Below are positions 8,044 through 41,700 of a stretch of 42,794 nt of DNA, one piece after another; positions within the stretch are counted from its first letter, which is position 1; each line of letters begins with the position of its first letter. Source of the stretch: Chrysophaeum taylorii (lineage: Eukaryota; Sar; Pelagophyceae; Pelagomonadales; Pelagomonadaceae). Under the pieces are notes generated by a model that saw nothing but the letters and a program-made list of their open reading frames with translations, ran no database searches and was not told the DNA's origin. The position numbers and the translations under genes are program-made. The stretch is from NCBI GenBank assembly GCA_029834535.1, contig JAQMWT010000123.1, forward strand, positions 1 to 42,794, in the 5' to 3' direction.

Positions 8044-9547
8044 GGTTGTTAGGTTGTTTGGAACATGGGACAAGAATGAGGTCATCTTGTGCAAAAGGTC
8101 GTTGTAAGAAGGAAGCAAGGGCGGCGGTGGCATAGAGCCAGAATCGTCGACGGGAGCGTCTGAAGGGGGAGGAGAAGCAGGAGCAGGGGACGAAGAAGGA
8201 GCTGAGGGAGGTGGAGAGTGCCCCCTCTGAGGATGAGGTGTCCGTGTCCCCCTCTGAATGAAATGGTCTTGGATAGCAGCGTGGGGTGTGAGCGAGAAAG
8301 GCGCGGGTGGAGCGTGAGGCGGAGGAGCAAGTTCAGGATCAGGAGTAGGATGCTGGAGCATGTAGAGGAATTGCAGCTTGGACGAAACACTGATTTGTCC
8401 GTTTTCAGGGTTGAGGACGACGTCGGCAATATGGTCAACACGTGGGGAGACGAGCGGGTTTTGCGCGTTGGGGCAACATAGATATAAGTATTTGCGGCGG
8501 CACGGTTCCCACTTGTGGTGCTCGTGGGGTTCCAATAGAAGGTAGCATTCAGCGCCGAAGATCTTGAGCATGTCATGCTGGGGAGTGCTCAGTTGATTGT
8601 AGAGTAGCTGTTGCGGACTCAGGATAGCATGGTGAATGCTCTCAAGCGTGGCGTTCGGGAGAAAGTTGTAGCTTTGGATGGTGTGTACCACCGCCCAGGG
8701 AAACATGATGGCTGGTCCCACGATCTTGGAGCCACGATAATGAGCATTAAGGAGAGAGCGAAGGCGAGTTGAGGAGGCGGAGGCGATGAAGCCGATGGCT
8801 GACTCAACTTCAAAGTTAAAGTGGTGCATGTACGTCGGGAAAGCGATGAGCTGAATGCCCTTATCGACGCGGTACGGGGAGGTAATGTGCTGGCTAAATT
8901 AGGGCTTGAAGGCATCGGAGTAGAGGGTGCGCAAGTGCACGTTGAGTTGTGTACGACAAAAGTCATACACTAAGTCCAGAGCTTGAGTGAACTCCGTGGC
9001 GTTGGTGGTGCGTGTAAAGTACACCAAGAGAAACTTCGAGATAAGTTCTTTGAACACAATGATATGTGTGAAGCCTCCCCATTCGGACGGAATTGTCACA
9101 TAGCCGCCGTCGCACGCCCAGACTTCGCCGGCTTTGTGAGTTTGCTCAAAAGAGGGCTTGGTCGGATTGAAGTGCTTGTGCGGGTGGCGCTTGTTGTGCG
9201 CGGTGCAGTCGGTGCATAAGTCGCGATACGGTAGGTCTGAGGCAGAGAAGCCAGGGCGAGCCAGTACGTTGGGGGCCTTGGCTGCAACGTTGTCGGGGCA
9301 GTGGTGCACCCGGTGGAAGCGATTGGCTCGTTCTTTGGCGTTGAGATATTCAGCGGATCCGTGTGCGAAGGATTTGCGAGGAATGGGATGAGCGGGGATA
9401 TGACGTTTGCGCCGAAAATCGAACTTGAGTTCGGTGTCCAAGGCAGGAGGAGGCGGTGCGTCGTCATCCTGGTGCGCAGCAGGGTCACTTGGAGGTGAAT
9501 CCTCATCATCACAAGTAGCGAGAGTATCTTCGTAGGACGAAGACATA
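8044..9547 (-). pseudogene. Integrase of element HC (copia type, one nonsense codon)
   Basis: The domain starts after the box with an acidic Asp-rich spacer. An HHCC zinc region follows (FHRVHHCPD ... YRDLCTDCTAHN), then the catalytic core: first Asp in VWACDGGYVTIP, second in LYSDAFKP, and a Glu in FNFEVESAIGF about 35 residues later. After it comes the copia C-terminal block FPWAVVHTIQSYNFLPN, ILSPQQLLYNQL and LKIFGAECYLLLEPHEH, then a Pro-rich linker. Integrase inserts the cDNA into host DNA. A TAA splits it between S-D-A-F-K-P and F-S-Q-H; element I has TAC (Tyr) there, so the stop is a private mutation. No frameshift is needed. Homology with I ends at about 8044. Confidence 0.85.
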
Positions 9548-9568
9548 TAGTTTAACGACATTTCGGTC
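9548..9568 (-). other. 21-bp junction box, methyltransferase/integrase (HC)
   Basis: On the minus strand GACCGAAATGTCGTTAAACT plus A. In frame it reads L-T-E-M-S-L-N-Y, upstream of the integrase zinc region. Confidence 0.85.
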
Positions 9569-10005
9569 AAGCAGTTGCTGGAGATAGAAGTCATGAAGGC
9601 TTGTGCCAAAGACAAGGTATCTGTGCTGCACGTGGTGGAGGCCGGATCAAAGGTCACGAAGGTGGATACATAGGATTTCTTCATCACGGCAGCAGCATGT
9701 TGGAAGGTAGGGTCCAACATATGGGATTTAATATCGGCAACGAGGAGCGAGAGGTGCTTGTACAGTGTGCTGTACGTACCGGCAGGCAGAGCATTGCTGG
9801 GCATGTCTGTGCAAAGGTCGTGGCGAAGAGACAAGAGGAAAGGTTCCTGTTGTTTGGTGTGGTTGTTAGCACGAATCAACACCGGTCGAGTGGGATAGCG
9901 TAGTCTCCAGTTGCGAGGGTCGAGTAAGATAATGTCTGCATACCCTCGGACGGTGGGCAATGGAGCAAGCATGGCGTGGATTTTAGAGCCGAGTTTGCGG
10001 TCACT
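9569..10005 (-). CDS. Unassigned segment between methyltransferase and integrase
   Basis: About 145 codons in the polyprotein frame, starting SDRKLGSKIHAMLAPLPTV and passing through GYADIILLDPRNWRLRYPTRP, SLRHDLCTDMPSN and DPTFQHAAAVMKKSY to the box. The same segment is present, with small deletions, in element I (40467-40890), so it belongs to the element. It could be the target-recognition or C-terminal part of the methyltransferase or a separate domain. I do not recognise it. Confidence 0.55.
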
Positions 10006-11487
10006 TCAACGAAGATACCATATATAGCGACTATGGGATAAGTGGTGATCTTCCAGAGCAAAATGAGAATCCTTGTAGTCGAAAGAATTGTCGGTGGCCT
10101 TGTAGGTAAGGCAGCCAGGCATCACAAGAGAGCATCTGGACAAGAGCTTTTGTATGGCGGTGCCATAGGTGGCAGCGGAGCCAACTTGAGGAAGGGCTTG
10201 GATTATCCACAAGTAACCCATAAGCGGCTCCAAATATATAGATCTGTCTCTGTCGTGGGGAACGTTGGAGGCAGTAAACGTATACGTGCTTCCAAACGCG
10301 TCAATGGAAGCATGATATTTGGTGGCGGCGTTTTCTATGGTGAGGTTGCCGTCGGAGTGGTGGCCGCCGGTTCGGAAGTAGGTGTTGTGTGATGTTGATG
10401 AGGTTGTAAGTAGTAACCTATGTGACGGTTGGTCAGTTTCGAAAACGGTTATGTAATAGGACACAGGAGTGGGTGAGTTAGTGTGCAATCTGGCGAACAC
10501 GTTATATAGTATGGTAAAGGCCTTGACACGCAATGGATTAGTTGCATGTGGCAGTGGTTCCAAGGAGGAGCGTTTGAAACACAGCTGATGGTAAGTACAC
10601 TCGGATTGAACAGAGTGCGTGCGTTGCTCGTGAGCCTGTTGTGAGTGAAGGCGAAGAAATAATAAATTAAGTGTTTCAAGGTCAGTCATAGTAAGCTGAA
10701 CAGAACCTGTGCGAGAGTAAGGTGCAAACGTTTTAGGAACGGGGACATCTGGTGGATCGGGGAACACCCGGATCCAGTCTTTGGCAATATCCTTGGATAG
10801 CCAAAGTCGTTTAGGAATGGCTTGTATGTCATCCACGATCTTAAAGAAGGGGCGTGGGTGGTGGATAGGCCATGAAAGTATGTTGATTGGTCCAGTAGAA
10901 TACCTGCGTGCGATGCAGATCCATCTTTCCCTAGATTGGTAGTCGCCACATAGGTAGGTCGGGAACCTGTCAACAACATCGACACAGTAATCGAGTGTGG
11001 CATGGATGAGATTGGCCACAGTTATGTGGTCTTGATGACAGTACTTGTGGGGTGGTGTCATCTCAGCCAGTAGTACCAAGGGTTGGAGAAGTTTGATGAC
11101 AGACAGCATGCTGTCGAACAGAGAGTCGTCGAGCAGGCTGTGTAAGTCTTCGGTCTTATGCTGCTTTAGTAGATTCCTGTTAGTGCAAGGAGGAGTTATC
11201 TCAATAATATCGCAATAAAATTTGCGCCTTTCCTCTGGTGAGATTTGGTGAAGATGGTTGATAAAGGCGGGTAAAGATTCAAATAATAATACTGTAGGAA
11301 AACGGTGGCGTAACATGCGCACAAGCGTATCATCAGACTCAACAACAACTTTTACATTGATATTTAAGCCTAGGTCATTAGTGGCTTGAGACAGGAACGC
11401 TGGGGTTGACAAACCAGAACAAAGTAACATGACAGAGGGTTTGCGAAGATTGGGCTCTTGTGAGAGAAACACTGGGCGAGAAAGCAT
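10006..11487 (-). CDS. C5 cytosine DNA methyltransferase domain in copia pol
   Basis: This 493-codon frame holds the C5-methyltransferase motifs in canonical order. Motif I is VMLLCSGLSTPAF (residues 19-31, SAM site). KVVVESDDTLVRMLRHRFP (46-64) matches the motif II Glu and the following helix. Motif IV is EITPPCTNRN, with the catalytic Cys at residue 101 (11187-11185). Motif VI is LQPLVLLAEMTPP with Glu142, and motif VIII is YQSRERWICIARR (183-195). ATYGTAIQKLL near residue 435 may be motif X (GNAV-like). The enzyme would methylate cytosine in DNA. It is in frame with the protease upstream and the integrase downstream, separated only by TGA codons at 11488-11490 and 10006-10008; element I has TTA and GGA at these sites. 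Capture of such enzymes by retrotransposons is known in dinoflagellates and charophyte algae. Activity is unproven. Confidence 0.85.
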   Translation of the reverse strand: MLSRPVFLSQEPNLRKPSVMLLCSGLSTPAFLSQATNDLGLNINVKVVVESDDTLVRMLRHRFPTVLLFESLPAFINHLHQISPEERRKFYCDIIEITPPCTNRNLLKQHKTEDLHSLLDDSLFDSMLSVIKLLQPLVLLAEMTPPHKYCHQDHITVANLIHATLDYCVDVVDRFPTYLCGDYQSRERWICIARRYSTGPINILSWPIHHPRPFFKIVDDIQAIPKRLWLSKDIAKDWIRVFPDPPDVPVPKTFAPYSRTGSVQLTMTDLETLNLLFLRLHSQQAHEQRTHSVQSECTYHQLCFKRSSLEPLPHATNPLRVKAFTILYNVFARLHTNSPTPVSYYITVFETDQPSHRLLLTTSSTSHNTYFRTGGHHSDGNLTIENAATKYHASIDAFGSTYTFTASNVPHDRDRSIYLEPLMGYLWIIQALPQVGSAATYGTAIQKLLSRCSLVMPGCLTYKATDNSFDYKDSHFALEDHHLSHSRYIWYLR

Positions 11488-12546
11488 TCATGTTAATGGT
11501 GGGGTATTTTGCTGAACAAATTTGTTCTGTTTCCGAAGATTAAGAACCAAAGGGCGAATCCACGGGCGATCTGGTAAAACTCTCTTGAGGAGATAGTTAT
11601 AATATGCCAGTAGATCCCTGTTTTCGTGGTATCGCTTGAGCGGAAATGCGAGGGAGCGTAGTTCGAGTTGCTTGTCGCGAGCGATGTGGTAGGTGAGACA
11701 AGGGAGAGCAGGCAAATTAGCTGCTACGTTATGTATGGGAATACGCACATCTTTGTCTATGCGGCTCGTGACAGCGCTGAGCTTTGGCTCAGATCGATCA
11801 CTGAACACAGTGGTCAAGTTCGTCTGGTTCCACTCGAGCATGCTCAAGATAGCGAAATGTCGGTTGTGCACTGGCTGAAGACATAAAGCGAAGTCGATCT
11901 TAACATAGCCAACTTGTGGATGATCTGGTAGGGGAACAACTATGTTGCGCGTTAACATCATGTGTGAGGCACGTTGTTGTCCAGTGGCAGTTTGAATAAC
12001 AATCGGCGCGTATTTGGAGTCCAGTGGAATAATATGATTTGGTATTGCAAAATCGTACGTGGACATCAATGAGATGGTAGCACAAGAGTCAAAATATAGA
12101 AAGGAACAATGTTGAGGGACACTGTTTACCGTCATATAGTTGGTGAGGAAGGCATTTTCCGAATGCGGGCAAGTAGTGGAGAGGCTGGCAGTGAAGAAGT
12201 TCTCCAGAAATAACAGGTTAGTTGGAATGATAATCGGTTGAACAGGTGGTGATGGTTCGTCAGCCTCATCAGCCATGCCGTGCTTCTCATCAAATGATGA
12301 TAGCGAGGTCCTATCGACATCCCTTGTGGTTTCGGCTTGTGGTGGTTGGTTGATGGCTGATTGGACCTGTGAAGATAGCGAGGACAGTAACGCTGGTGGT
12401 AACGCCGAGATGGCGGAAGCAGTAAAGAAGTTAGGCACAATATCAGAGGGATTACCCTGTGTGTTAAAGGCATTCTTGGTATCGGTAGTAGGAGGAGTTG
12501 CCTTTGGGGTGGGAGCAGTAGCAACAGTATGATGTTGTGGCTCCAC
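11488..12546 (-). CDS. Aspartic protease region of element HC
   Basis: 352 codons, opening at GTG directly after the TAA of gag2 in the same frame. The N-terminal 110 residues are Pro/Thr/Ser-rich and probably unstructured. A retropepsin-like core follows: LYFDSCATISLM with Asp153 (12090-12088), a flap-like IVIQTATGQQ, a YVKIDFALCL strand and a FAILSMLEWNQTNL segment. The usual Asp-Thr/Ser-Gly is Asp-Ser-Cys here, which is unusual and may impair activity. In copia elements this enzyme cuts the polyprotein. The corresponding region of element I (41701-42794) lies mostly beyond a retroposon insertion. The terminal TGA at 11488 replaces a TTA in I, so protease and methyltransferase were probably one continuous chain. 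Confidence 0.7.
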   Translation of the reverse strand: MEPQHHTVATAPTPKATPPTTDTKNAFNTQGNPSDIVPNFFTASAISALPPALLSSLSSQVQSAINQPPQAETTRDVDRTSLSSFDEKHGMADEADEPSPPVQPIIIPTNLLFLENFFTASLSTTCPHSENAFLTNYMTVNSVPQHCSFLYFDSCATISLMSTYDFAIPNHIIPLDSKYAPIVIQTATGQQRASHMMLTRNIVVPLPDHPQVGYVKIDFALCLQPVHNRHFAILSMLEWNQTNLTTVFSDRSEPKLSAVTSRIDKDVRIPIHNVAANLPALPCLTYHIARDKQLELRSLAFPLKRYHENRDLLAYYNYLLKRVLPDRPWIRPLVLNLRKQNKFVQQNTPPLT

Positions 12547-12547
12547 T

Positions 12548-12568
12548 TAGTTTAACGACTTTTCGGTC
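12548..12568 (-). other. 21-bp junction box, gag2/protease (HC)
   Basis: On the minus strand GACCGAAAAGTCGTTAAACT plus A. It reads T-E-K-S-L-N and is followed immediately by TAA, after which the protease frame continues without a shift. Confidence 0.85.
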
Positions 12569-12979
12569 GAGGATATATGAACGTCTACATCATAAATGAT
12601 GTCTTCTGCGAACATAAGTTGTTCGTTTAGACGAAGTAAGTCACCATTGTCCTCAGTAGATGTGGTTGATAGAATATCGGCGGATTGCAGCAGAGTCTCA
12701 AATAACATGACGATGTTCAGTTGTAGCTGAGCCGTGATATCATTATCTGTCACATGCTTCGTAAGTTCACTACACTGCTCTTGCAGTGTATTTGTGGTGT
12801 GCTTCGTTCGATCCAATAATTTCATATTAGATCGAGAGGACCTGTCGAACGTGCGAGGGTAAATTGGACGGTCATGGGACTGTCCAGCAGTTTTCTTGGT
12901 GACATAAGAATCACCAGAACGATAATACGATAAGTCGCTGCGAGAGAAAGGGTGGCGTGCATCGTTAGAGTTACGCAAG

Positions 12980-13371
12980 CTAACTAACTAACTAACTTCA
13001 GACCTCTCCCGAGCATGGGAGCCAGGCCGGACAGGCAGGAGCCGATCCGGAATCACAGAGGAAAATCACGCAGTTGGGGCAGAGGCGAAGGACGAGGACT
13101 CGTCGATGACGGACCGCCACTGCGCGCGGTCTTGTGCGAAGTCGTGCAAGAGCGTCGCAGGCCGCAAACGTGTTGGTCCACGAACAATCGACCTGTCCGT
13201 CGCGTTCTGCCCAACCGAGCGAACCCCATCCCAGCGCGGACTTTCCGGGTGCTAACCGGCCAGCCCGGGAGGCGAGCAGGCACCGTCTCACTCCGGGACG
13301 GCCGGGGCCGCCGCAGGGAGCAAGCGTGTTAGGCGCCGTCCTCCATCGCAACCAACGGTTAGCGATCGCAC
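12980..13371 (-). mobile_element. TTAG-tailed retroposon copy 2
   Basis: Minus orientation: the tail reads as CTAACTAACTAACTAACTTC on the plus strand. It is flanked by TTACGCAAG (12971-12979 and 13372-13380). Practically identical to the copy at 16934-17335 in opposite orientation, including its non-coding frames, so both are recent. It interrupts gag2 of HC. Confidence 0.9.
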
Positions 13372-13537: not shown

Positions 13538-14570
13538 TCCTAACTACTAATCGACAGATGTTTGTCTGTTTGTCCCTCGATTTAGGGTAAGGATCAGGTA
13601 GGCGCGAGAGTAAGGATCAGGTAGGCGCGAGAGCCAGACAGTGATCCTCCAAGCCGTCTACGGCGACCTCGCAGACTATTTCCACGACCCGCGGCGGCTC
13701 TTTCAGCGCGCCATTCTCACGCCCCGTCGAAACGATGTTGTCGATGCTGACAACGCGCGCATGACCGCGGCCTTTTTTTCCCGGAGACGAGGCGTCGGAG
13801 TTCTTTTCGGCTGACTAGGTTGGGTCGGAAGACGACGCCTCGCTCTTTACCTCGAGTTTTTTCCCGAGACAGGCAACGGAGTTCTTTCGGCTGACTGGTT
13901 TTGTCGCGACGTCTCGCAACCTCGACCCGTCGCACGGCCACTGCAACGGTACCAGATACATGATCGATCGTGTCGTTGTCACCGAGGCTCCTCCAACCTG
14001 TATCCCTTAAGGCCCGCCGACGCCAAACGATCACCAAGAGCCAGGGCCAGACGCCCGCGAGGTCGGCGTCCTCTTGGCGAAGCCCGTCTTCTGCCGCGTC
14101 CAGCTCTACGTGGCTCTCTGTCGATCGGCAACCCCGAGGATATCCTCTTCTGGGTCGACGACTCCACCCTACCCCACACGTGCTGCGCAATACCGATAAG
14201 CCCTCCCGGCGTCTACACGCGCACTGTAGGTGAACTTACTGGGACCAGGTGAACTTACTGGGGTTTGAGATTGGGACTAGGTGAACTTAGTGACCAGGTG
14301 AACTTACTGGGACCAAGTGAACTTACTGGGTTTTAGAGTGAACGCAAAGGCTAGCGGCGTGTACGGATCAAAGCAGCTTAGATTGGCGGAGGTGAGAGCG
14401 ACGAGCTCGAAGGAGAGTGGGGTGAGTGGGTGTGAGCACGAGTGGGCTTACAGTGTAAGTTACACCGAACTTACTAGGGTTAGAGATTGGGACTAGGTGA
14501 ACTTACTGGGACCAGGTGAACTTACTGGGGTTAGAGATTGGGACTAGGTGAACTTACTGGCCTGCACTTG
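13538..14570 (+). mobile_element. Helitron 3' fragment, array copy 1
   Basis: The unit begins TCCTAACTACTAATCGACAG after a flanking A (13537) and ends GGCCTGCACTTG. It carries a decayed C-terminal Pif1/Helitron helicase: the plus-strand frame near 13640-13800 reads AVYGDLADYFHDP, then the RAILTPRRNDVVDADNARM match to RAIL-P-N-DV--IN. Near 14020-14130 is the TINKSQGQT...LYVALCR region, broken by indels and by a duplicated Phe-Phe-Pro-Glu-Thr stretch. The last 330 bp contain repeated GTGAACTTACTGG. Confidence 0.75.
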
Positions 14571-15595
14571 TAACTACTAATCGACAGATGTTTGTTTGTT
14601 TGTCTGTCTGTCTGTTTGTCCCTCGATTTAGGGTAAGGATCAGGTAGGCGCGAGAGTAAGGATCAGGTAGGCGCGAGAGCCAGACAGTGATCCTCCAAGC
14701 CGTCTACGGCGACCTCGCAGACTATTTCCACGACCCGCGGCGGCTCTTTCAGCGCGCCATTCTCACGCCCCGTCGAAACGATGTTGTCGATGCTGACAAC
14801 GCGCGCATGACCGCGGCCTTTTTTTCCCGGAGACGAGGCGTCGCAGTTCTTTTCGGCTGACTAGGCTGGGTCGGAAGACGACGCCTCGCTCTTTACAGTA
14901 GAGTTTTCAACTCCCTGACAACCAACGGCATGCTGACTTTGATCGCGAGCTTAAAGTCTTCGCAACCTCGACCCGTCGCACGGCCACTGCAACGGTACCA
15001 GATACATGATCGATCGTGTCGTTGTCACCGAGGCTCCTCCAACCTGTATCCCTTAAGGCCCGCCTACGCCAAACGATCAACAAGAGCCAGGGCCAGACGC
15101 CCCGCGAGGTCGGCGTCCTCTTTCCCAAGCCCGTCTTCTGCCACGTCCAGCTCTACGTGGCTCTCTGTCGATCGGCAACCCCGAGGATATACTCATCTGG
15201 GTCGACGACTCCACCCTACCCCACACGTGCTGCGCAATACCGATAAGCCCCCTCCCGGCGTCTACACGCGCACTGTAGGTGAACTTACTGGGACCACGTG
15301 AACTTACTGGGGTTTGAGATTGGGACTAGGTGAACTGAGTGACCAGGTGAAACTGGGACCAGGTGAACATACTGGGGTTTTTAGAGTAAAGGGTTTTTAG
15401 AGTAAACTCAAAGGTTGGCGGCGCGTGCGGATCAAAGCAGCTTAGATTGGCGGAGGCGAGAGCGACGAGCTCAAAGGAGTTGGTGTGAGCTAGGTGAACT
15501 TACTGACCAGGTGAACTTATATGAAACTTACTGGGACCAGGTGAACTTACTGGGGTTAGAGATTGGGACTAGGTGAACTTACTGGCCTGCACTTG
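14571..15595 (+). mobile_element. Helitron 3' fragment, array copy 2
   Basis: Head-to-tail with copy 1. It starts TAACTACTAATCG (the first bases of the consensus TCC are missing) and ends GCACTTG. The helicase part reads LRQTINKSQGQTPREVGVLF and PVFCHVQLYVALCRS, matching the conserved Helitron motif TINKSQGQ...VG--L--PVF-HGQLYVA-SR. GTGAACTTACTGG repeats follow. Confidence 0.8.
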
Positions 15596-16830
15596 TCCTA
15601 ACTACTAATCGACAGATGTTTGTCTGTTTGTCCCTCGATTTAGGGTAAGGATAATGTAGGCGCGAGAGTAAGGATCAGGTAGGCGCGAGAGCCAGACAGT
15701 GATCCTCCAAGCCGTCTACGGCGACCTCGCAGACTATTTCCACGACCCGCGGCGGCTCTTTCAGCGCGCCATTCTCACGCCCCGTCGAAACGATGTTGTC
15801 GATGCTGACAACGCGCGCATGACCGCGGCCTTTTTCCCGGAGACGAGGCGTCGGAGTTCTTTTCGGCTGACTAGGCTGGGTCGGAAGACGACGCCTCGCT
15901 CTTTACAGTCGAGTTTTCAACTCCCTGACAACCAACGGCATGCTGACTTTGATCGCGAGCTTAATGTCTTCGCAACCTCGACCCGTCGCACGGCCACTGC
16001 AACGGTACCAGATACATGATCGATCGTGTCGTTGTCACCGAGGCTCCTCCAACCTGTATCCCTTAAGGCCCGCCTACGCCAAACGATCAACAAGAGCCAG
16101 GGCCAGACGCCCCGCGAGGTCGGCGTCCTCTTTCCCAAGCCCGTCTTCTGCCACGTCCAGCTCTACGTGGCTCTCTGTCGATCGGCATCCCCGAGGATAT
16201 ACTCATCTGGGTCGACGACTCCACCCTACCCCACACGTGCTGCGCAATACCGATAAGCCCCCTCCCGGCGTCTACACGCGCACGGTAGGTGAACTTACTG
16301 GGACCACGTGAACTTACTGGGGTTTGAGATTGGGACTAGGTGAACTGAGTGACCAGGTGAAACTGGGACCAGGTGAACATACTGGGGTTTTTAGAGTAAA
16401 GGGTTTTTAGAGTAAACTCAAAGGTTGGCGGCGCGTGCGGATCAAAGCAGCTTAGATTGGCGGAGGCGAGAGCGACGAGCTCAAAGGAGTTGGTGTGAGC
16501 TAGGTGAACTTACTGACCAGGTGAACTTATATGAAACTTACTGGGACCAGGTGAACTTACTGGGGTTAGAGATTGGGACTAGGTGAGCTGAGTGCCCAGG
16601 TGAACTAACTGGGACCAGGTGAACTAACTGGGACCAGGTGAACTTACTGGGGTGTTTAGAGTAAACTCAAGGGTTGGCGGCGCGTGCGGATCAAAGCAGC
16701 TTGGATTGGCGGGGGTGAGAGCGACGAGCTCAAAGGAGAGTGGGGTGAGTGGGTGTGAGCACGAGTGGGTTTACGCCGAACTTACTGGGGTAAGAGATTG
16801 GGAGTAGGTGAACTTACTGGCCTGCACTTG
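15596..16830 (+). mobile_element. Helitron 3' fragment, array copy 3
   Basis: Starts TCCTAACTACTAATCG and ends CTGCACTTG at 16830, followed by T (16831). It is nearly identical to copy 2 through the helicase, then has an extra block of GTGAACTTACTGG-type repeats (about 16580-16800). The longest helicase frame is 15699-16019 (ILQAVYGDLADYFHDPRRLF, RAILTPRRNDVVDADN), followed by 16026-16256. The array lies between A (13537) and T (16831), the A/T target typical of Helitrons. Confidence 0.8.
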
Positions 16831-18610: not shown

Positions 18611-19938
18611 TATAATATAGCGCTGTTCAATAGATAGATCCAGCGTGTTTGTCAGTAGAAATTCCAGTTTTTGTTGTGGTGTCAATCCTTCAACGTAAGG
18701 TTCCCAAGAAACAGGGCGTTCTAAGCGTCTTTTATTCGACCCATTTGATACTATATTATATAAGTCTAATGCGTATTCTAAGATATAGCTAGGGTTGGTA
18801 GGGTGACACAATCGTTCAGCGTCTGGCACAGGCCGAGATGAAGATCGAGTTTCATACATATAATACCAGTCTACCCAACCACGATCGTAACGATTGTTGC
18901 TTGTATTATCGGCATATAATGCCGATGTATCTCTTCATAAAATTTTCCACAAAGAGTACCAAAGTCGAATTGAAGGTCAGTCTCTCCCTGGTTAAGTTGG
19001 TAAGAGATTTGCCTAAATGCTAGGACAGCTTCAATAAAGACATGGACATACCAGTTAGGATTATAAACAACAGAGTTAAACTGCTGTTTCAGGTAGGACA
19101 CATCAGTAGTCGCATCAGACTCGTAGTGACTAAAGGCAATGAGCATAACGGCGCGAGCCTTGTTGGGCGAATAACTTTTGTTATACACTTCATTGATGGC
19201 GGGCCAGGCCGCAAGTGCTGGTTTTCCAACACTTTCGAGATTGAAGTAAGTATGCAAGAATGTAGCATACGTGTTCTGATAAGTGTGCCAATCAGCCGCA
19301 GTTAACGAAAACATGGTAACAGGGGCACGAACGCGGGTGTCAAAAGCTAATGCTTTCGGGTGCGCGCGATTTAAGATTCGTTCCTCTTCTAAGAAACGAA
19401 GATTGATTTCAGGGCGCAATGCCTTGACTTCATTGTCGTAACAGACAGTAGCTAGCTGAGCTACTTCTGCGTCAGTCAAGTTGGGGAAAGCTTCATTGGT
19501 GAAGTGCCATTCCCGATACTCTGGGGGCAATTCATCAACAGCTAAATGGAGATCAGCAGCCCTATCGGTCTTCCATTCCAGGAAAACGCGATCGAGAATT
19601 TTATTCCGGAGGATCTCGTAGTCCTTGCATGACCGAGTGTATGCTTCGTACGAGTCGTACTCGAGGAAGGCATCGGCATGACTGGACCGTAATAATTGTT
19701 GATTATGCTTAATTTGTAAGGACACCTTGCGGGTTTAAAGCTGAAGTCGATTTCCTTCATTGAGAAACTCAACTACAGGGGCTTCGAGCTTCAGGATGTC
19801 CGCACCTGTGATCGCCTTGGGTGCGGCTCGTGCTGCGTGTTCTGCCATAGCAGTTGACGGGGAACCTGTGGGTTCAGTCACGCAGTTGACACTGTCTAGA
19901 CATTCTAAGGGGGCCTGTCTATCGGTGTCTATGTACAC
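18611..19938 (-). pseudogene. gag1 of element HC (one stop, one frameshift)
   Basis: This is the longest gag1. A likely start is the ATG at 19848 (MAEHAARAAPKAITGADIL), placing the LKLEAPVVEFLNEGN segment like E's IYKQEQIPVDKINAGL. An in-frame TAA at 19735-19737 follows. The main frame 19725-18871 shows KVSLQI, FLEYDSYEAYTRSCKDYE, FLEWKTD, DNEVKALRPEINLRF, WHTYQNTYATFLHTYFN and PWPAINEVYN-like helices, to DLQFDFGTLCGKFYEEI. After a shift near 18880 the frame goes on as WVDWYYMYETRSSSR ... LTPQQKLEFLL ... LSIEQRYII, ending at the hAT target. It sits behind the LTR and PBS, so it is the first structural ORF. No known gag domain is recognisable by eye. Confidence 0.65.
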
Positions 19939-21740: not shown

Positions 21741-21838
21741 AGGACTAATTGACTGTGTAGAAAAGGAAGAAGAAGGGTAAGGAAAAGATCACGTTCTCAA
21801 CGGACGGATAAGGGTAAGAGGCATCAGATTTCTCTACA
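21741..21838 (-). repeat. 5' LTR of element HC, outer part
   Basis: AGGACTAATTGACTGTG to TTTCTCTACA matches the outer third of the LTR at 34277-34590. Together the two pieces make about 309 bp, the family length. G coding sequence starts at 21839. Confidence 0.8.
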
Positions 21839-22900
21839 GAAAGTAACATCAATGGAAGTGCGAATCACTGGACCGGTGGCACGTTGAAGAAGGATGCGAT
21901 AACCGGGACCACCAGAGGGATACCCAATAAAGATTCCAGTGATGGCTTTGGTAGGCCGTTTGTCGCCAGTGAGAATAGCAGCAGGGCAGCCCCAAACACG
22001 AAGAAAATCGACGCGAGGCAAGGTTTCGTGCAACATTTCGTATGGGTTCAGGTAACCAGGGTAGGATGCGTTAGGCATCAGCTCGAAGATGAAATCAGCC
22101 GTTTCCATGGCCCAACGCCAAAAATCAGGTGGACGGTGTGCATGCCCCAAAGGAGTTCGAGTAATATCTGCTGTTGAGCGATGGGAGCGTTCCACAACAC
22201 CTGAGAAAGCGTGCGCTTGGGAATGTTTGGACTGGGCAGCGGGAGAGCGTTTGATGGCGATGTTATTGCCCAGACAGAAGGTTTCAAATTGGCCCATGAG
22301 AGATTTGTCACGATCTGTGTAAAGAAGAGCAATATGGTAGCCAAAGGATCGAACCACAGTACACAGGGAAAGTTCGAGTTGACGAGCGTTTGTGAGCGCG
22401 TCGTGTCGAGCGTGTCGAGGAGCGAAGTAACGCGCACGGCGGCGCGTGTGATCATCGACAAAAGTAAGAATTGCATGGTCTTGGTAAATGAAAGAAGGAA
22501 CGCCTGTGAACATCAGATCAGCGTGGATGATAAGATAGGGCGCGACTCACGTGGGCGCGGCCAAACTTCGTTTTCAGGAAGAGAGCTGGGAGCTTGATCA
22601 CGTGATTTGCGATGGCCAACGTGAACAGCATGCATTTTACCCAACGCACAGGCAGGACAAAAAGAAAGAGACGCGGAACTTGGGAAGAAAGGTGCGCCCA
22701 CAGCGAGAGAGGACAAACGGCGGATGTGAGAGGGACTATAATGACCAAGGCGAGCATGCCACAGGTCGAATGTAAGTTGGGTGCGTTGAGACACAGCGGG
22801 AAAGGCGCAAGGTCGTGTAGGCGAGGGCAGGAAGAAAAGGGGAAACAAAGTCCGCGTAGGGTGCAGCGGTTGTATTGCCGATCCAACAGACAATCAATAG
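21839..22900 (-). pseudogene. Integrase of element G (frameshifted, 3' truncated)
   Basis: The zinc region LWHARLGHYSPSHIRRL ... FCPACALGKMH (H-x3-H, C-x2-C) is in the frame 22893-22513. The core then moves to another frame: Asp in IIHADLMFTGVP, Asp in LLYTDRDKSLM, Glu in FSGVVERSHRSTADI, followed by FWRWAMETADFIFELMPN, NPYEMLHETLP, LRVWGCPAAIL and the C-terminal IFIGYPSGGPGYRIL block. Spacing between the second Asp and the Glu is about 40 residues, longer than the usual 35. It ends at the LTR of HC. A frameshift near 22540 links the two parts; the protease frame upstream is also shifted by one. Confidence 0.85.
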
Positions 22901-23480
22901 GAGACCACAGCGACGGAGCAGAGGAATGACATGATGCGTCTGTCGGTGACGCAAAATTCGTTGAGGGTGGGTAGGCCCCATGTCTTGGATCGTATGGCAA
23001 TCATACCCGGCCTGCTCAAGGGCATGATCAGAAAGAATCCGCTTATCACCAAGGCCAGGAGAGACGAGAGTGTGGGGAAATGCAATGTGGACGCCATGAG
23101 GGACAGAAAGAGTGGGTGCTGGGGATGGAATACCACGATTGTCAATAGGCCCGATAGAAGGGAACGTTAAGTGGGCAGTGCCCGAGCCAGAGACAGAGCC
23201 AGTGCCAAGAGCAGAATTGATGGCGTGTTGTTGGGTGTTGTCGAGGTCCGTAAACCCAGAAGGGGAATTAAAGAGATTGACGTTGGCACCCGTATCGTAG
23301 ACAACAAGACGGAGGTTGTTGTAGTGAAGATAGTCGCGCTCACGGGCGGTGAGTAGAGCGTTGAGAGAGTTGGTGGAAGACAAGACTTGGTGAACCGTTG
23401 GAGATATGGAGAAAATATGAAAATTGAAAGACGGATAGGTGGCAGCAGTGGAAGGTGGGTCAGTAGGGGAAGGCATGGCC
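22901..23480 (-). pseudogene. Protease of element G
   Basis: LRLVVYDTGANVNLF carries the classical retropepsin Asp-Thr-Gly (Asp codon 23296-23294). A flap-like SALGTGSVSGSGTAHL follows, then a VSPGLGDKRILSDHALEQ block typical of the copia protease C-terminus. The long frame 24073-22736 overlaps gag in a different register (+1 relative to gag), which could be a natural frameshift as in Ty1 or a mutation. Downstream the register must change again to enter the integrase zinc region. Confidence 0.8.
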
Positions 23481-24606
23481 GTGGAAGGCGGGACAGAGGG
23501 TGTGGTGGAGGGTGGCAACGCAAGAAGCGGCGGAGAGGGTTGAGATGGGGGCAAGAGTGGTGTGTTTTGGGGCAGAGAGGTAGTTTTGGTATAATGGTGG
23601 ATTTGGGCGAGGTTGGTATTGGGAATGAGGGGGAGGTCGGGACGTGGCTTGTTTGAGTAAGTAGCGCTGACGCTTGCGACAATCTTTCTTGTAATGACCA
23701 GGAATGCCACAAAAGTGACAAAGGTCAGTAGCGCGTGGGCGCTTGGTGATAGGATAGTTGGGTTGGGGAAAAACACCCCGGTCGTGTGTGTTGTAAAATG
23801 GAGGCAGAAGCCTGGAACGGGAAGTTGGGCGGGGGCGTTGGTGCGGATTGGAGCGCAAGGGAGTATGGTGACGGGAGCGGCGAAAGCATTGAGCAGTGGA
23901 ATGGTTACGACGACCACAGATTTGGCACAAGCGAGAGTTGGAGTCACTGTAGCGATGGCGGGGTCCCTTGCTGATAGCAACATTGACAAGTGTATGCTTG
24001 TGTTGGGCGTGTTCATAGATCTTTGAGTTGAGGCGATCAACAAAACCATCACATGTTTGCAGTTTAGCATCAAGCGCTATGAGATCTTTGGACAAAATTG
24101 AATCAGGGATTTTCGTTTGAAGCAATTGCAACGCAGTAGCGTCGGGGATATCTTGATGATGCCGAGCAACTTGAACTCCGGTGATAAACTTGTTGAGGAA
24201 GTTCTCAAGATTATCAATATTGTTGGACACCAGCGTATGCAGCGAAGCAATAGCGGATTGAGCTACGCGCTCTCCGTGGCCCATGTAGACATCTGTAATG
24301 CGCTTGCGATGCCGCGTGAGGTTCATGTCGCGGTATTCACGGATGTCTGCACGATCAGTATCATGCATCGGGAGAGCCATGAAGAGGGCAGAGTACCAAC
24401 GTTGTTGCTTGACCCGAAATTCATCTTCAGAGCAGCCAGATTTCGAGATGCTAGTCCAAGTGTCATGGGTCAAGATAATATGATCACCGGTGGAGATGAT
24501 CATGTTCCCAAGACGACGTGTCCACTGGTGGAAGAGATGTCGCTCACCGCTGAAGGCATCGAGTTTTGCGAAAGCTTGCTATCTTTAATTTCGATCGAGG
24601 ACATGA
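23460..24606 (-). CDS. Gag of element G with two CCHC zinc knuckles
   Basis: The main frame 24503-23460 encodes a copia-type Gag: HDTWTSISKSGCSEDEFRV, RWYSALFMALPMHD and a helical NNIDNLENFLNKFITGVQ region. Two nucleocapsid knuckles follow, CQICGRRNHSTAQC and CHFCGIPGHYKKDC, both C-x2-C-x4-H-x4-C, in an Arg/Pro-rich tail. A likely true start is the ATG near 24604 (MSSIEIKDSKLSQNSM), joined through a one-base shift near 24505. Gag packages the element RNA. The overlap with the protease frame covers about 600 bases. Confidence 0.85.
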
Positions 24607-28890: not shown

Positions 28891-29473
28891 CCTTGGCTTC
28901 CTCTAAAAAAAGAGCTGTGTTTCAAGTATGCCCGCCTCGTCTGCCTGCCCGCGCTCTCTTCTTCACGAGTTTCGTCGTGTCCCACCGCTCCTTTTCGTGC
29001 CTCTCTGCTGCCTTTCGCGCGGCTCCTGTGCTGCTGCACTTTCCACCTTCCCGCCGCCCTCCCGCGTCGTCCCTCTCTTCTCTACTCCGCCTCTCTCGCT
29101 TCTCTCGTCGTGAACCCACCCGCCTGCCTTGCCATACCGTGTCTCTCCTCCGCGCCTGCTGCCTGACGCGCGCCGGGGCGCGCGGGGGGCGGACCGCCCA
29201 GCCCACCGCCGGCCGCCCGCCGTATCCTTCTCCGTTGTTTGTTCTGGGGGTGGGCGGCCGCGCGGGCGGCGGTGTACGGCTTCTGACAGTCGACGCGCGC
29301 TGCTACTCACGCGACCGTCTTTGCCGCCAAAACAGTCATAACTAGCAAACTTGAGATGCGGGTGCGAGACGGGTACGGGACCTCCAACGATGCGGGTATG
29401 GCGAGGGTACGGCGGGGCGCTCGACGTGGGTACTTCGCCGACCCGGGTAGATGGCACACGCGGGTACGGCGCC
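28891..29473. other. C/T-rich and G/C-rich non-coding stretch
   Basis: A pyrimidine-rich plus strand (about 28930-29160), a GC-rich part and then diverged GGGTAC-type repeats that grade into the minisatellite. Long frames here are low-complexity artefacts. Confidence 0.5.
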
Positions 29474-29604
29474 GATCCGGGTACGTCGCCGATCCGGGTA
29501 CGTCGCCGATCCGGGTACTTCGCCGATCCGGGTCCTTCGCCGATCCGGGTACTTCGCCGATCCGGGTCCTTCGCCGATCCGGGTACTTCGCCGATCCGGG
29601 TACC
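29474..29604. repeat. 17-bp minisatellite
   Basis: About 7.7 tandem units of GATCCGGGTACTTCGCC with variants GTACG and GTCCT. Degenerate units extend on both sides (about 29420-29760). Because 17 is not a multiple of 3, all frames show a 17-residue repeat. Confidence 0.9.
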
Positions 29605-29789
29605 AGGACCCGGGGAGGCTGGGGGTCCAGGTGCGACGGGTAAAGAGGCTCTGCCGGGTACACCCACACCCGCTTGTGCACCCGGGTATGTCGACACCCG
29701 GGTGGCGGCGGCTCAGAGGGTACTAAGGGGGTCCCCACACCCGGGTACTGGACGCCCACCCAAATGGGACCCTACTGTTACTTGATTCA

Positions 29790-36341: not shown

Positions 36342-38107
36342 ACTAGAGTTAGCATCTTCAATCCTGTAAAGCTTGTCGTCAGAGGCATGATGCATACCGA
36401 GTAGAGAACGAAAAGTGGAGAACTCGGCAGCAAGTGGCTTTGTAAAACCATCCGCCACGTTCAGCTTGCCGGAACCATGATGGACTCATGTTCAGCATAG
36501 AGATGTACTCACGGATTTTAAACCATCTGGTCGACAGTGCCTTGGATCGAGAGGACCCATCTGGGTTATTAGGGTGTGAACAGCGGCAGCATTGTCAGAC
36601 AAGAGAGGTAGGCTTCTGATGAAGCGCGTTCTTGCAATTGGGTTGTCATTGTCATCGAAGTCACAGGGTCAGCGGTGTGCTCACCATTAGCATTGTTGAC
36701 GTAGAAGGTGGGGTTGACGAAAGGAAGTTCCAACAGCAGCTTGCGTAGCCAAACAGCTCATCAGCACAATACTGAGGGCAATCAACTCAGCTTCGTGAGT
36801 TGAGCAGGAGACGATCGGTTGAAGTTTGCTTTTCCAACCAATAAGGCAGTTGAAAAGATAGAAGACAAACCCGGTGGTAGATTTCCTATCTTCCTGTGCT
36901 AAGGAAGGGCCGTTGTCAGCGTCAACCATGGCAACTAAGGGATCAAACTGTCCAGTAGATACATCCTGCGGTTGGCAGTCGACCACAGTGGATGGATCAA
37001 TTCGATTAGCGGAGACGGTGGCGAAGGTGAGCGAAGCAAATGCTCTAGCATTTGGACGTGAACGTACGTGGGTGCATGCATACCACGCGAACATCTGCCC
37101 AAGGCTTGCGAGAGTGGTCTGCAGGCAACTTGCATGAACACCAGCTTGCCAAGGAGGGTGGCAAAGTGCGAATTGATACAACTCTGTTTCAGAGCTGGGA
37201 GTGCCATCTTTATACTTGAAGGACGATGACATAGGATATTTAAGCAGGGTCAGTTGCTGCAAGACTGGGTGATCAGCGAAGAGTTCATCCAGCTTGCGCA
37301 TCCAGAGAAATGGAACCGTCAGATGTGCGACACACGCGCATGCCTAGGAGTATGGACAGGTTCAAACTGCTCAACAGCATACCGTTTGTGGAGGGATCCT
37401 GTAACTCAGTACGAAGAGGGTCATCATTGGACACATAACAATGTCGTCTACAGACAGACGCGACAGAACTTGCATGTGCGGATACTCGAGCATATAGGCA
37501 AGAGTCCGATGCAGGCGTTTGTAAGGCTACGGAAGAAGCCGTCTATCTCTGTTCCAAAGAGATGGTGATTGCCGAAGTCCATAAAGTGACTTCAGAGTTT
37601 CGGTAGACGTCGGCCCTTGTACTTAGCGTCATCGGGGTCGATAAGCTTGATGCCGTCTGGTAACTGAACATAGACGTTGGAATCAATGTCAGACTGAACA
37701 AGGCGTTCGGGACGTCTGCATGGTAGACAGGCAATTGCTTGTATGCTGCAATAGCTAGTAGTACCCGGATTGCGGTCATGGTGGCCATGGGGCTGAAGGT
37801 GCCAAAGAAAGCGCCAAGAGATGCTAGGAAGCCACGTAGCACGAGGCGAGCCTTGTGCTTAACGTATTTGCCTGCAGAGTCTGTTTTAATCTTCAGCACC
37901 ATCTTGCTGTCAATAGGACGAGAGACACCGTCGGGTAAAAGGAAGTTGAAGCAGCCAAAGCGGATAATCGTGGGTTCTTGGCGATGGCGAGGTAGGCGTG
38001 CCTGTTTTCAGGCGACAAACCGTGGAGGCACTTGAGTTTATATTCGTCAATGGAAACGTCCTTCTTGGACCTTATATTCGTCAGGACCAACAGTGGCTGG
38101 TGAATTA
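36342..38107 (-). pseudogene. Reverse transcriptase-RNase H of element I
   Basis: RT begins shortly after the box: LPDGVSRPIDSKMVLKIKTD, VKHKARLVLRGF, MATMTAIRVLLAIAAYKQLP and VYHADVPNALF (frame 37902-37543), then IKLIDPDDAKYKGRRLPKL and SLYGLRQSPSLWN in another frame. The catalytic box reads Ser-Val-Asp-Asp (37454-37443). The frame 37301-36687 gives LKYPMSSSFKYKDGTPSSE, AMVDADNGPSLAQEDRKSTT, GFVFYLFNCLIGWKSKLQP and STHEAELIALS. The RNase H end (ADGFTKPLAAEFSTFRSLLG) is in 36458-36228. Several indels make it non-functional. Confidence 0.85.
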
Positions 38108-38128
38108 TAGTTTAGCGACGTTGCGGTC
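38108..38128 (-). other. 21-bp junction box, integrase linker/RT (I)
   Basis: On the minus strand GACCGCAACGTCGCTAAACT plus A. Reads S-T-A-T-S-L-N-Y-N-S and lies directly upstream of RT. Confidence 0.8.
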
Positions 38129-39100
38129 GAGCAGTGTGCGCAACTGGGATAAGCGAAACAGCGTCAGTAGGGTAGGAGAAGCAGATTCCAGTTGAATATG
38201 GATAGTAGGGTCGGTGTAAGGACCGGGTGATAAACTCTGTAGAGACCAGAAGGTATTCCCAAGTCAGCCAGAGATGCAGAAGTAGCGCCAAACTCGGAGG
38301 GTTGTGATCAATAAAGCTGGTCGGCGCCAGGTACGTAAGTGTATTGTAAGGAAGAAGTGCCAAAGGCAGCAGCGTGTTCAGTGAACGCAGATAAAAGGGG
38401 CGCGAGGATGGGGCACGTAGGTGAACCATCAGCATTGAAAGGACGCTGGGATGCTGGATGCGCACTTGGCGTGGGCAAGTAACCATCGACGTGCGGGTAG
38501 CGGGCAGGTAAGTCAATGCGCAACAGGATGATCGCCGACTGCCGAGGATGGAAGGGCGATGCGATGAGCGGCAGGGCGCCCTTGGCGTGACGCAGCGCCT
38601 CCCGGGCGGGCTTGGCAGCCAACGTGCAGTGGACGCGTGGCCGGGGAGACGGAGTTATCGAAGGGTGAGTTGTCAGTCACGTGCGGTCTGTCGCATGGGA
38701 CAAGAAGGATGGTCACTGCAGACGGCGACAGGCCCGTGATCGGACTGATGTCGGTCCGGCCTGGCTCCAGCTCGGGAGAAGTGCAGTAGTAGTGAGAGAA
38801 AAACGGGAGAAGACGGGCACAACGCGTTCCCCCCTATGAGCAGATAGCAGACCAGAGGATATACCACGGAGATGAAGGGCGGAGAGGGGGACTTGAACGT
38901 AAGAAGGCGGTGGCGAAGATCCCAGCGGAAATCGGCGAGTTTGCCACCAGCGGCGTAAGCACCAATAGTAGACGCTGTAACCGGGCTTGGATAGTTTTCA
39001 TAGAAGTGGCCTTGCGGGTGTTGGGCTGTTTGGAACATGGGACAAGAATGAGGTCATCTTGTACAAAAAGGTCTTTGTAAGGAAGCAAGGGCGGCGGTGA
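38129..39100 (-). pseudogene. Linker between integrase and RT (I)
   Basis: The minus-strand frame 38622-38308 reads LRIDLPARYPHVDGYLPTPS, QRPFNADGSPTCPILAPLLS and FGTSSLQYTYVPGADQLY; further pieces follow in other frames to the box. The upstream side (38834-39100) is the Pro/Ser-rich tail shared with HC. Degenerate retroposon copy 5 splits it. No known domain is recognised; variable linkers between integrase and RT are normal in copia pol. Confidence 0.5.
38590..38790 (+). mobile_element. TTAG-tailed retroposon copy 5, degenerate
   Basis: GCCTCCCGGGCGGGCTTGGC, then GTCAGTCACGTGCGGTCT and GTCGGTCCGGCCTGGCTCC match copy 1 in order, with many small deletions. The tail is no longer recognisable and no target duplication was found. 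Ends are approximate. Confidence 0.65.
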
Positions 39101-40450
39101 CATGGAGCCAGAATCGTCGGCGAGTGTTAGAAGAGGGAGAAGAGGCAGGAGCAGGGGACGAGGAGCTGAAGGAGGTGGGGAGTGCCCCTCTGAGGATGAG
39201 GGTGGTCCCCCTCTGAATGACATGGTCTTGGATAGCGGTGTGGGGTGTGAGCGAAAGAGCGCAGGAGGCGTGAGGCGGAGGAGCAATTCAGGATCAGGGA
39301 GGATGCTGCAACATGTGAGGATTGCAGCTTGGACGAAACACGATTTGTCCGTTTTCAGGGTTGAGACGACGTCAGCAGATGGTCGACGCGTGGAGAGACG
39401 AGCGGGTTTTGCGCGTTGGCGCAACATAAGATATTTGCGGCGCGCACGGTTCCACTGGTGTTCATGGGGCTCCAATAGAAGGTAACATTCAGCGCCAAAA
39501 ATCTTGAGCATATCATGTTGGGAGTGTTGAGTTGGTTGTAGAGTAGCTGTTGCGGACTCAGGATAGCATGATGAATGCGCTCGAGCGTGGCGTTCGGGAG
39601 AAGGTTGTAGCTTTGAACGGTGTGTATCACCGCCCATGGGAACATGATGGCTGGTTCCACGATCTTGGCGCCACGATAGTGAGCATTAAGGAGAGAACGA
39701 AGGCGAGTTGAGGAGGCGGAGGCGATGAAACCGATGGCAGACTCAACTTCAAAGTTAAAGTGGTGCATGTACGGCGGGAAGGCGATGAGTTGAATGCCCT
39801 TATCGACGCGGTACGGGGAGGTAATGTGCTGGCTAAAGTAGGGCTTGAAGCAAGGAGTAGAGGGCGCATGTGCACGTTGAGTTGTGTACGACAGAAGTCA
39901 TACACAAAATCAGAGCTTGAGTGAACTCCGTGGCGTTGGTGGTGCGTGTAAAGTACACCAAGAAATTTTCGAATGCCCTTGAAGACGATGATATGTGTGA
40001 AGCCTCCCCACATAGCCATAGCCGCCGTCACGCCCAGACTTCGCCGGCTTTGTGAGTTTGCTCAAAAGAGGCAGTCGCATTGAAATGCGTGCGGGTGGCG
40101 CTTGTTGTGTGCGATGCAGTCGGTGCATAAGTCGCGATATGGTATGTCAGAAGCAGAGAATCCAGGGCGAGCAAGTACGTTGGGGGCCTTGGCAGCGACG
40201 TTGTCAGGGCAGTGATGCACCGGTGAAGCTTGGCACGTTCTTTGGCATTGAGATATTCGGTGGATCCGTGTGCGAGGACTTACGAGGAATGGGATGAGCG
40301 GGAATGTGCCGTTTGCGCCGAACATCGAACTTGAGTTCGGTGTCTAAGGCAGGAAGGCGGTGCGTCGTCATCCTGGTGCGCAGCAGGGTCACTTGGAGGT
40401 GCATCCTCATCATCACGAGTAACGAGGTATCTTCGTAGGACGAAGATATA
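39000..40450 (-). pseudogene. Integrase of element I
   Basis: Frames broken by small deletions align with HC throughout: PRTRIHRISQCQRTC..., the zinc region with YRDLCTDCIAHNKRHPH, the first Asp region, then KPYFSQHITSPYRVDKGIQ (where HC has a stop), MHHFNFEVESAIGFIASAS, FPWAVIHTVQSYNLLPN and AILSPQQLLYNQL. It serves mainly as the comparison showing that the stop codon in HC integrase is private to HC. Confidence 0.8.
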
Positions 40451-40466
40451 TAGTTTAAGCAAGGTC
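40451..40466 (-). other. Decayed junction box, methyltransferase/integrase (I)
   Basis: On the minus strand GACCTTGCTTAAACTA: the box of HC at 9548 with five bases deleted, in the homologous position. Confidence 0.6.
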
Positions 40467-41700
40467 AAGCGGCTGGAAATAGACATCATAAAGCATGCCA
40501 AAGACAAGGTATCTGTGCTGCACGTGAGGAAGCTTAATGGTCATGAAATTGGATACAGGACTTAGTCGGCAGCAGTATGTTGGAAGGTAGGGTCCAACAT
40601 AAGGTTTAATATCGGCAACGAGCGAAAGGTGCTTGTACAGAGTGCTGTACGTACCGCAGGCAGAGCATTGCTGAGCATGTCACAGCAAAGGTCATGGCGT
40701 GAGACAAGAGGAAGGATTCGTTGTTTGGTGTGGTTGTTAGCACGATCAACTCCGGTCGAGTGGGGTAGCGTAATTTCCCGTTGCGAGGGTCGAGTAAAAT
40801 AATATTGGCATACCCTCGGACGGTTGGCAATGGAGCAAGCATGGGTGGATTTTAGAGCCGAGTTTGCGGTCACTTCCACGAAGGTACCCATATAGCGACT
40901 ATGAGATAGTGGTGATCTTCAGAGCAAATGAGAATCCTTGTAGTCGAAAGAGTTGCGGTGGCCTTGTAGGTAAGGCAGCCAGGCATCACAAGAGAGCATC
41001 TGACAAGAGTTGTATGGCGGTGCCATAGGTGGCAGGCCCACTACAGGGAAGGGCTTGGACTATCCACAAGTAACCTAAACGGCTAAATATATGGACTGTC
41101 CCGGTCGCGGGGATGTCGGAAGCAGTGAACGCTGTGCTCTACGTGCCAAAGGCGTTGATGGGGTTTGATGTTGGTGGTGGCGTTCTCTATGGTGAGGTTG
41201 CCGTCGGAATGGTGGCCACCAGTTAAGAAGTAGGAGTTGTGTGATGTTGATGAGGTTGTAAGCAATGACCTGTGTGACGGTTGGTTAGTTCCGAAAACGG
41301 TTATGTAATAGGACACAGGAGTGGGTGAGTTAGTGGCAGCTTCAAACAAATTATAGATGATTGTAAAACGCTTGACGATGCATAGGATTTTGGTGCATGG
41401 GTGACCCCATGAAGCGTTTAACAGATGATGACGAGTACCTCGGATTGAACAGAGTGAGTGCGTTGTTCGTGAGGGATATGGAGGATCGGGAACACCCGGA
41501 TCAGTCTTTGATACGTGTTTAGGTAGCCAAAGGCGCTTGAATGGCATTGACAGACAACGTAGTAGAAAGGGAGTGTAGTCAGCAGGCTGTAAGTCTTCTG
41601 TCTTATGCGTCAATGAAATTCGCGTTTGTGCAAGGGAGGTGATCTCAATTGGTATCGCAATGGAATGTGCGCCTTTCCTCTGGTGAGATTAGGTGAAGGT
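40467..41700 (-). pseudogene. DNA methyltransferase region of element I, decayed
   Basis: The minus strand aligns with HC along the whole domain: LVRMLRHRFPTVLLFPESLP and INHLHLISPEERRTFHCD before the catalytic motif, where a one-base deletion destroys the Pro-Pro-Cys frame (near 41630). Then come KTEDLQ, FKRLWLPKHVSKTDPGVPD, PVSYYITVFGTNQPSHRSLL and SDGNLTIENATT, and the segment up to the box (GYANIILLDPRNGKLRYPTR). Roughly 200 bases of the central part are missing compared with HC. It shows the methyltransferase is a family trait, not a chance insertion in HC. Confidence 0.75.

Follow-up and report, generated by a model that had tools for sequence, protein, structure and literature searches.

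A C5 methyltransferase fixed between the protease-like region and the integrase of a copia-like retrotransposon lineage in Chrysophaeum taylorii

DNA methyltransferases (DNMTs) carried by retroelements have been published for LINE, DIRS and Gypsy elements, in dinoflagellates and charophytes (PMC5890265). In KnitGypsy-Dnmt3 of Klebsormidium nitens, described by de Mendoza et al. in 2018, a C5 methyltransferase (MTase) lies within the pol polyprotein of an LTR retrotransposon, has kept its catalytic residues and is under purifying selection, with Ka/Ks < 0.2 in KnitGypsy (PMC5890265). The same source describes two further DNMT-carrying multi-copy elements, SymbioDIRS-Dnmt3 and SymbioLINE-Dnmt of Symbiodinium, proposes for SymbioDIRS that the element methylates its own cDNA, and presents Copia elements of Symbiodinium without any DNMT domain (PMC5890265). 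One sentence in another paper puts DNMT3 members in "LTR Copia and DIRS" elements (PMC12344493); it cites the 2018 paper, which describes Gypsy, and gives at that place no structure, organism list or recoding site. Searching the literature by title and abstract opening, we found no paper on a copia-borne DNMT.

The element analyzed here was found in a stretch of 42,794 nucleotides from the pelagophyte Chrysophaeum taylorii (contig JAQMWT010000123.1, positions 1 to 42,794), hereafter the window. It belongs to a copia lineage in which a C5 MTase is fixed between the protease-like region and the integrase, in frame with integrase and reverse transcriptase (RT). We call its family F1 and a sister family F1b. 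As in KnitGypsy-Dnmt3, the MTase of F1 is part of a retrotransposon pol polyprotein, with catalytic residues kept and purifying selection. However, KnitGypsy-Dnmt3 is a Gypsy element with a DIRS-type repeat arrangement and a Dnmt3-like enzyme (PMC5890265), whereas F1 is a copia element with an orphan MTase and a conserved UGA; the Symbiodinium elements, multi-copy and DNMT-bearing like F1, belong to the DIRS and LINE classes. As far as our searches show, the copia context, the fixed site between protease-like region and integrase, the conserved UGA and the orphan MTase family are apparently new, as is the presence of several MTase-bearing families in one 70.8-Mb genome that also has DNMT5.

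The F1 copy in the window consists of the following parts, identified in part by comparison with two other copies, L009 and L012.

18632-19938, minus strand: initial segment of gag belonging to this F1 copy (93-94% identity to the L012 gag-protease ORF by tblastn)
11491-12984, minus strand: remaining gag sequence with the protease-like region (95.6% identical to residues 463-960 of L012)
11488-11490, minus strand: in-frame TGA at the border of protease-like region and MTase, conserved in F1 and F1b copies
10009-11487, minus strand: C5 MTase domain with C-terminal extension, 493 aa, core at about residues 14-346
10006-10008, minus strand: private TGA where MTase and integrase meet, a defect of this copy (sense codon in 20 of 20 other copies)
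8092-10005, minus strand: integrase and linker, 3'-truncated (89% identity to L009)

The window's list of ORFs and their translations gives 493 aa for the minus-strand ORF 10006-11487, which shares its frame with the protease-like ORF 11488-12546 and the integrase ORF 8899-10005. The preliminary description of this DNA had placed the MTase in one reading frame with both neighbors. This is correct for the frame itself but not for its continuity, as a TGA stands at each border of the MTase; the upstream one is conserved in the family, the downstream one occurs in the window copy only. The protease call rests on the FDSCATISL motif and on position, and a Pfam scan returned no protease match in the F1 protease-like ORF or in L009. 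Pfam recognizes the window's integrase part (rve, E 0.0059; SH3_retrovirus, 3.3e-5), which contains one TAA, and tblastn gave no RT match 3' of the integrase. The first part of gag is separated from the rest of the copy by other DNA with satellite-like repeats. With its split gag, private TGA, TAA in the integrase and lost RT, the window copy is defective.

Several repeats accompany these elements. A repeat starting with (CTAA)n occurs at window positions 12981-13056 (in gag), 17334-17259, 5210-4846, 31162-30930 and 42694-42396, and at another F1 locus (L010, near 3866) an insertion with a (CTAA)n tract is found at the conserved stop. Satellite-like tandem units of about 1 kb lie at 13559-16000, within the split F1 copy, and also in L011 (7193-9901). 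At 29394-29631 of the window, a 17-bp tandem repeat adjoins an F1-like RT fragment.

Two other elements of the window can be set beside this copy.

41921-42319, minus strand: protease-like part of a second, decayed element (60% identity to L012)
40909-41917, minus strand: decayed MTase of the second element (tblastn pieces 41917-41615 and 41538-40909)
36441-40877, minus strand: integrase and RT/RNase H remnants of the second element (tblastn pieces)
21824-24578, minus strand: a different copia-like element, for comparison (ORFs; copia label assigned by eye)

In the second element the MTase remnants lie between the protease-like part (42319-41921) and the integrase (40877-38883), and a profile built from F1 MTases matches two ORFs of the decayed MTase with E 1.7e-13 and 1.4e-6. 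The decayed second copy reported earlier is thus real and holds the same position, but it runs from 41917 to 40909 and not from 40467 to 41700. The comparison element has a protease-like motif at 23299 and an integrase ORF from 22546, and the F1 profile finds no MTase match within 21824-24578.

Motif I of the MTase and its residues after PPC are unusual. The residues singled out in the preliminary description are all present and were scored at 23 loci, corresponding to 21 distinct places (two loci are duplicates and one repeats the window copy).

11338-11340, minus strand: Glu50 (VVESDD), the acidic residue of the second strand (23 of 23 loci)
11185-11187, minus strand: Cys101, the putative catalytic cysteine of the PPC motif (23 of 23 loci; also in the relatives P0002 and P0003, F1b and F2)
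11062-11064, minus strand: Glu142, the motif VI glutamate (23 of 23 loci; invariant in the alignment of F1b, F2, P0002 and P0003)
10924-10938, minus strand: Q184-x-R186-x-R188, motif VIII (Q184 and R186 at all 23 loci, R188 at 22)

On its own, the window protein matches no Pfam family at E<=1 and has no PDB relative, and the DNA_methylase profile (PF00145) finds no match in it, in three other F1 copies or in the F1b MTase. A missing match to this profile was to count against the assignment, but the relatives overturn that reading: P0003 reaches 23.0 bits, over the curated cut-off of 22, and P0002 reaches 20.2. A profile of F1 sequences built without F2, a second MTase-bearing copia family introduced below, matched the MTase ORFs of all ten F2 loci among 806 ORFs (E 4.6e-8 to 1.3e-4), with a best E of 0.57 in a reversed-sequence control. 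In PDB searches, the profile of F1, F1b, P0002 and P0003 (set A8) found no C5 MTase at E<=1; an earlier set (A3) had a cytosine MTase in its top row at E 0.64; and set A6, to which F2 rows had been added, found C5 MTases at 1.6e-5 and 2.8e-4, values partly owed to F2, which by itself finds M.HhaI at E 0.045. The predicted structure matches the C5 MTase fold, at 11-19% identity in 45 C5 MTase rows, in a model of modest confidence (mean pLDDT 50.8) whose alignment included F2 rows; AlphaFold on F1 copies and P0002 alone gave a mean pLDDT of 34.4. In this range of identity F1 differs from M.HhaI, DNMT5 and the other C5 MTases of the PDB, and it differs from them also in its motif I and in being embedded in a retroelement polyprotein.

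It could be argued that the motifs are a chance likeness or that the domain has another fold, as the window protein lacks a Pfam match and set A8 lacks a C5 MTase in the PDB. With P0003 exceeding a curated cut-off, F1 linked to F2 under a clean reversed control, the fold matched and the catalytic residues kept under selection, we reject a chance likeness and consider a protein other than a methyltransferase highly improbable. The domain is almost certainly a C5 MTase. Among 1574 candidates from a search of 5.8 billion proteins, no long polyprotein with an F1-type MTase was found at E<=0.01. P0002 (source MMETSP) is a transcript product; its ORF of 392 aa, recorded as complete, stops shortly beyond the MTase. 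It shows that a relative is expressed somewhere, and could represent either an independent gene or a truncated copy from another protist.

F1 has 89 matches in the 70.8-Mb genome, 24 of which run without a stop from residue 4 or earlier to residue 493. F1b, with an MTase 51% identical to that of the window over residues 8-296, has 131 matches in the same genome, which brings the two families to at least 220 matched MTase stretches, in addition to F2. With so many dispersed matches, we reject the idea that a recent segmental duplication multiplied a single aberrant copy. In the open copy L009 (contig C42), MTase, integrase (rve, 784-866), SH3 (968-1007) and RVT_2 (1431-1651; 7.7e-42) follow one another in one frame of 1691 aa, and by this domain order we assign F1 to Ty1/copia. 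To score the position of the MTase, we paired 108 of 116 protease rows (8 ending early were dropped) with 70 of 87 integrase rows (the other 17, being partial, were left out), which gave 38 pairs. The gap between protease and integrase is 1072-2488 nt in all 38, and 1402-1490 nt in 29; two gaps are shorter (1072 and 1174) and seven longer (1608-2488). Judged by length, every scorable copy thus keeps an MTase-sized or nearly MTase-sized stretch, and homologues lacking the domain were not among them.

Substitutions common to at least two copies have a ratio of nonsynonymous to synonymous rates of 0.136 in the MTase core and 0.073 in the integrase, as against 0.58 and 0.69 for singletons (Fisher p 6e-14 and 1e-17, respectively). 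Gapped codons and codons present in fewer than 10 copies were skipped, and since the linker and RT columns of the alignment are noisy, the claim is based on the MTase and integrase figures. Singletons are mostly decay after insertion. The low ratio among shared substitutions, as compared with singletons, therefore indicates that purifying selection acted on the MTase during the spread of the element, and its activity has very probably been kept by selection. As in the elements of de Mendoza et al. (PMC5890265), the DNMT is in frame with pol domains, present in many copies and under purifying selection. Copy number, selection, gap lengths, profile links and fold together bear out the earlier view that a copia-like pol has a C5 MTase among its stable components.

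F1 and F1b are not the only MTase-bearing elements of this genome. The copia family F2 (L026-L035) has a more orthodox MTase (FTLPCQ, VENV) and frames of up to 1952 aa. F3 (L036 and L037; contigs C235 and C686) has RVT_1 and RNase H, is Gypsy-like and carries a C5 MTase that scores 21.9 bits against PF00145 in L036, just below the cut-off, and 23.5 in L037. F4 (L038, L040 and L041; contigs C178, C57 and C260) also has a C5 MTase, with 35.0 bits in L038 and 34.0 in L041; it is Gypsy-like by eye, with no RT match in the single ORF scanned whole. In F3 and F4 the MTase stands before the reverse transcriptase and, by eye, apparently after a protease. The recognized enzymes of the host itself are DNMT5 (L025/L039, 3e-143 to 7r76, a sequence titled DNMT5; with an SNF2 domain) and DNMT2 (L024, 3.9e-39 to 1g55). 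No other host DNMT came to light in a six-frame, intron-blind search in which 123 of 474 candidates were scored and a minority of the rows inspected. At L039, 3468-8999 on the plus strand, the DNMT5-like gene forms one open frame of at least 1844 aa with DNA_methylase and SNF2. The profile of F1, F1b, P0002 and P0003 finds none of the host DNMT2, host DNMT5, F3 or F4 ORFs.

The integrases of F1, F1b and F2 are nearer to each other (F1 to F2, E 1e-17) than to that of the comparison element in the window (E 0.003 to F1 and 1.3 to F2). Because of this closeness and the specific likeness of the F1 and F2 MTases, we favor one capture in the ancestor of F1, F1b and F2 over two captures of related enzymes, in a comparison where the RT tree was rooted at the midpoint only. 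The sequences thus suggest a single MTase capture in this copia lineage. The preliminary description had considered an independent capture, and this idea gains partial support: neither the class of element nor the place of the MTase within it matches the cases published for LINE, DIRS and Gypsy, and the related MTase of F2 points to one capture within the copia lineage. Viruses are unsupported as a source of the MTase by a search of IMG/VR that may omit records closely resembling this genome, in which 10 pattern matches yielded 0 confirmed cases.

The stop that precedes the MTase is conserved in F1 and F1b. In F1, a TGA stands directly before the MTase in 18 of 19 copies scored by script and in one more by eye, or 19 of 21; one of the exceptions has lost the TGA and the other has an insertion there. 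In F1b it is present in 13 of 13 copies examined. Any other codon of the F1 frame is a stop in at most 3 of 19 copies, as a raw count with indels uncorrected. A stop shared at a single, constant position by families with 51% identity between their MTases argues for a programmed site; the UGA is probably a functional recoding site, and the MTase would then head the product made past it. The context after the stop is UGA-CUA in part of F1 and UGA-CGC in F1b; UGA-CUA is a leaky stop context. Tca2 of Candida albicans, which we take to be a copia member, provides a parallel. It too has a UGA between gag and pol ORFs of the same order (PMC2194720). In Tca2, however, a potential pseudoknot follows the stop and the available text mentions no MTase (PMC2194720), whereas the F1 stop follows the protease-like region, and RNA folding after the UGA showed nothing unusual in three sequences (z 0.42, 0.22 and -0.33), leaving a stem-loop there unsupported.

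This lack of structure would also suit another reading, in which the stop is just the end of ORF1 and ORF2 is expressed from its own transcript or by re-initiation. In one F1 subfamily an ATG comes directly after the UGA, as re-initiation would have it, and the gag-pol junction of Tca2 alone gave no readthrough in yeast (PMC2194720). Most other F1 copies and all 13 F1b copies, however, have no ATG right after the stop, and yet their frames stay in register across it. We therefore consider this reading possible but appreciably less probable than recoding.

If the UGA is recoded, the following scheme can be proposed. Gag-protease would come from normal termination at the UGA, and a minority of ribosomes would pass it (or restart there) to make MTase-integrase-RT. 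The MTase, as a pol-level component, would be packaged in the particle and would methylate the element's double-stranded cDNA before or at integration, a step in line with what de Mendoza et al. proposed for SymbioDIRS (PMC5890265). The host maintenance enzyme DNMT5 could then propagate the marks through every round of replication; a fresh insertion would thus start out marked and be quieter or better tolerated. Taken as a whole, with a selected copia MTase, passage of the UGA, cDNA methylation and upkeep by DNMT5, we hold this scheme to be somewhat likelier than its alternatives combined; for cDNA as the main substrate we see about an even chance. Singletons show no excess of CpG transitions (5.85 versus 6.64 per kb, p 0.54), which lends no support to lasting CpG methylation of the copies but may be compatible with methylation in another sequence context or with good repair. 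The earlier suggestion that the enzyme marks the element's own cDNA or alters silencing thus draws no support from CpG decay and stays inferential.

Other substrates can be envisaged. As a C5 RNA methyltransferase, the enzyme could act on the element's genomic RNA or on its tRNA primer, as DNMT2 does on tRNA. It shows no specific likeness to DNMT2, however, the F1 profile misses the host DNMT2 ORF, and a pol position beside the integrase also suits a DNA substrate; we think an RNA substrate unlikely. Fusion to the integrase would bring the MTase to the target site, and chromatin modules are known from other retroelements (PMC5890265), so that it might instead act on host chromatin near the insertion or on host genes, marking or silencing neighborhoods rather than cDNA. 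Since the ORFs that were scanned revealed no additional domain for binding DNA or histones, we give this even less credence than an RNA substrate. A broader idea, tentative and in our judgment rather doubtful, starts from DNMT5, a maintenance enzyme, as the only recognized DNA methyltransferase of the host's own: several MTase-bearing element families would write de novo marks on cDNA or target sites and DNMT5 would copy them, so that the host would maintain a cytosine methylome written by its parasites, with the copia writer held at a low, set ratio through the UGA.

The retroelements of this alga carry the kind of enzyme that is used to silence them, and the parasite may therefore help to write its own silencing marks. 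This makes the source of new methyl marks in organisms that possess DNMT5 and lack a known de novo enzyme a question that can be tested here, and the dose of the MTase may be set through the conserved UGA directly in front of it. As single-sequence Pfam scans miss this orphan MTase family, surveys of DNMT-bearing elements may undercount them.
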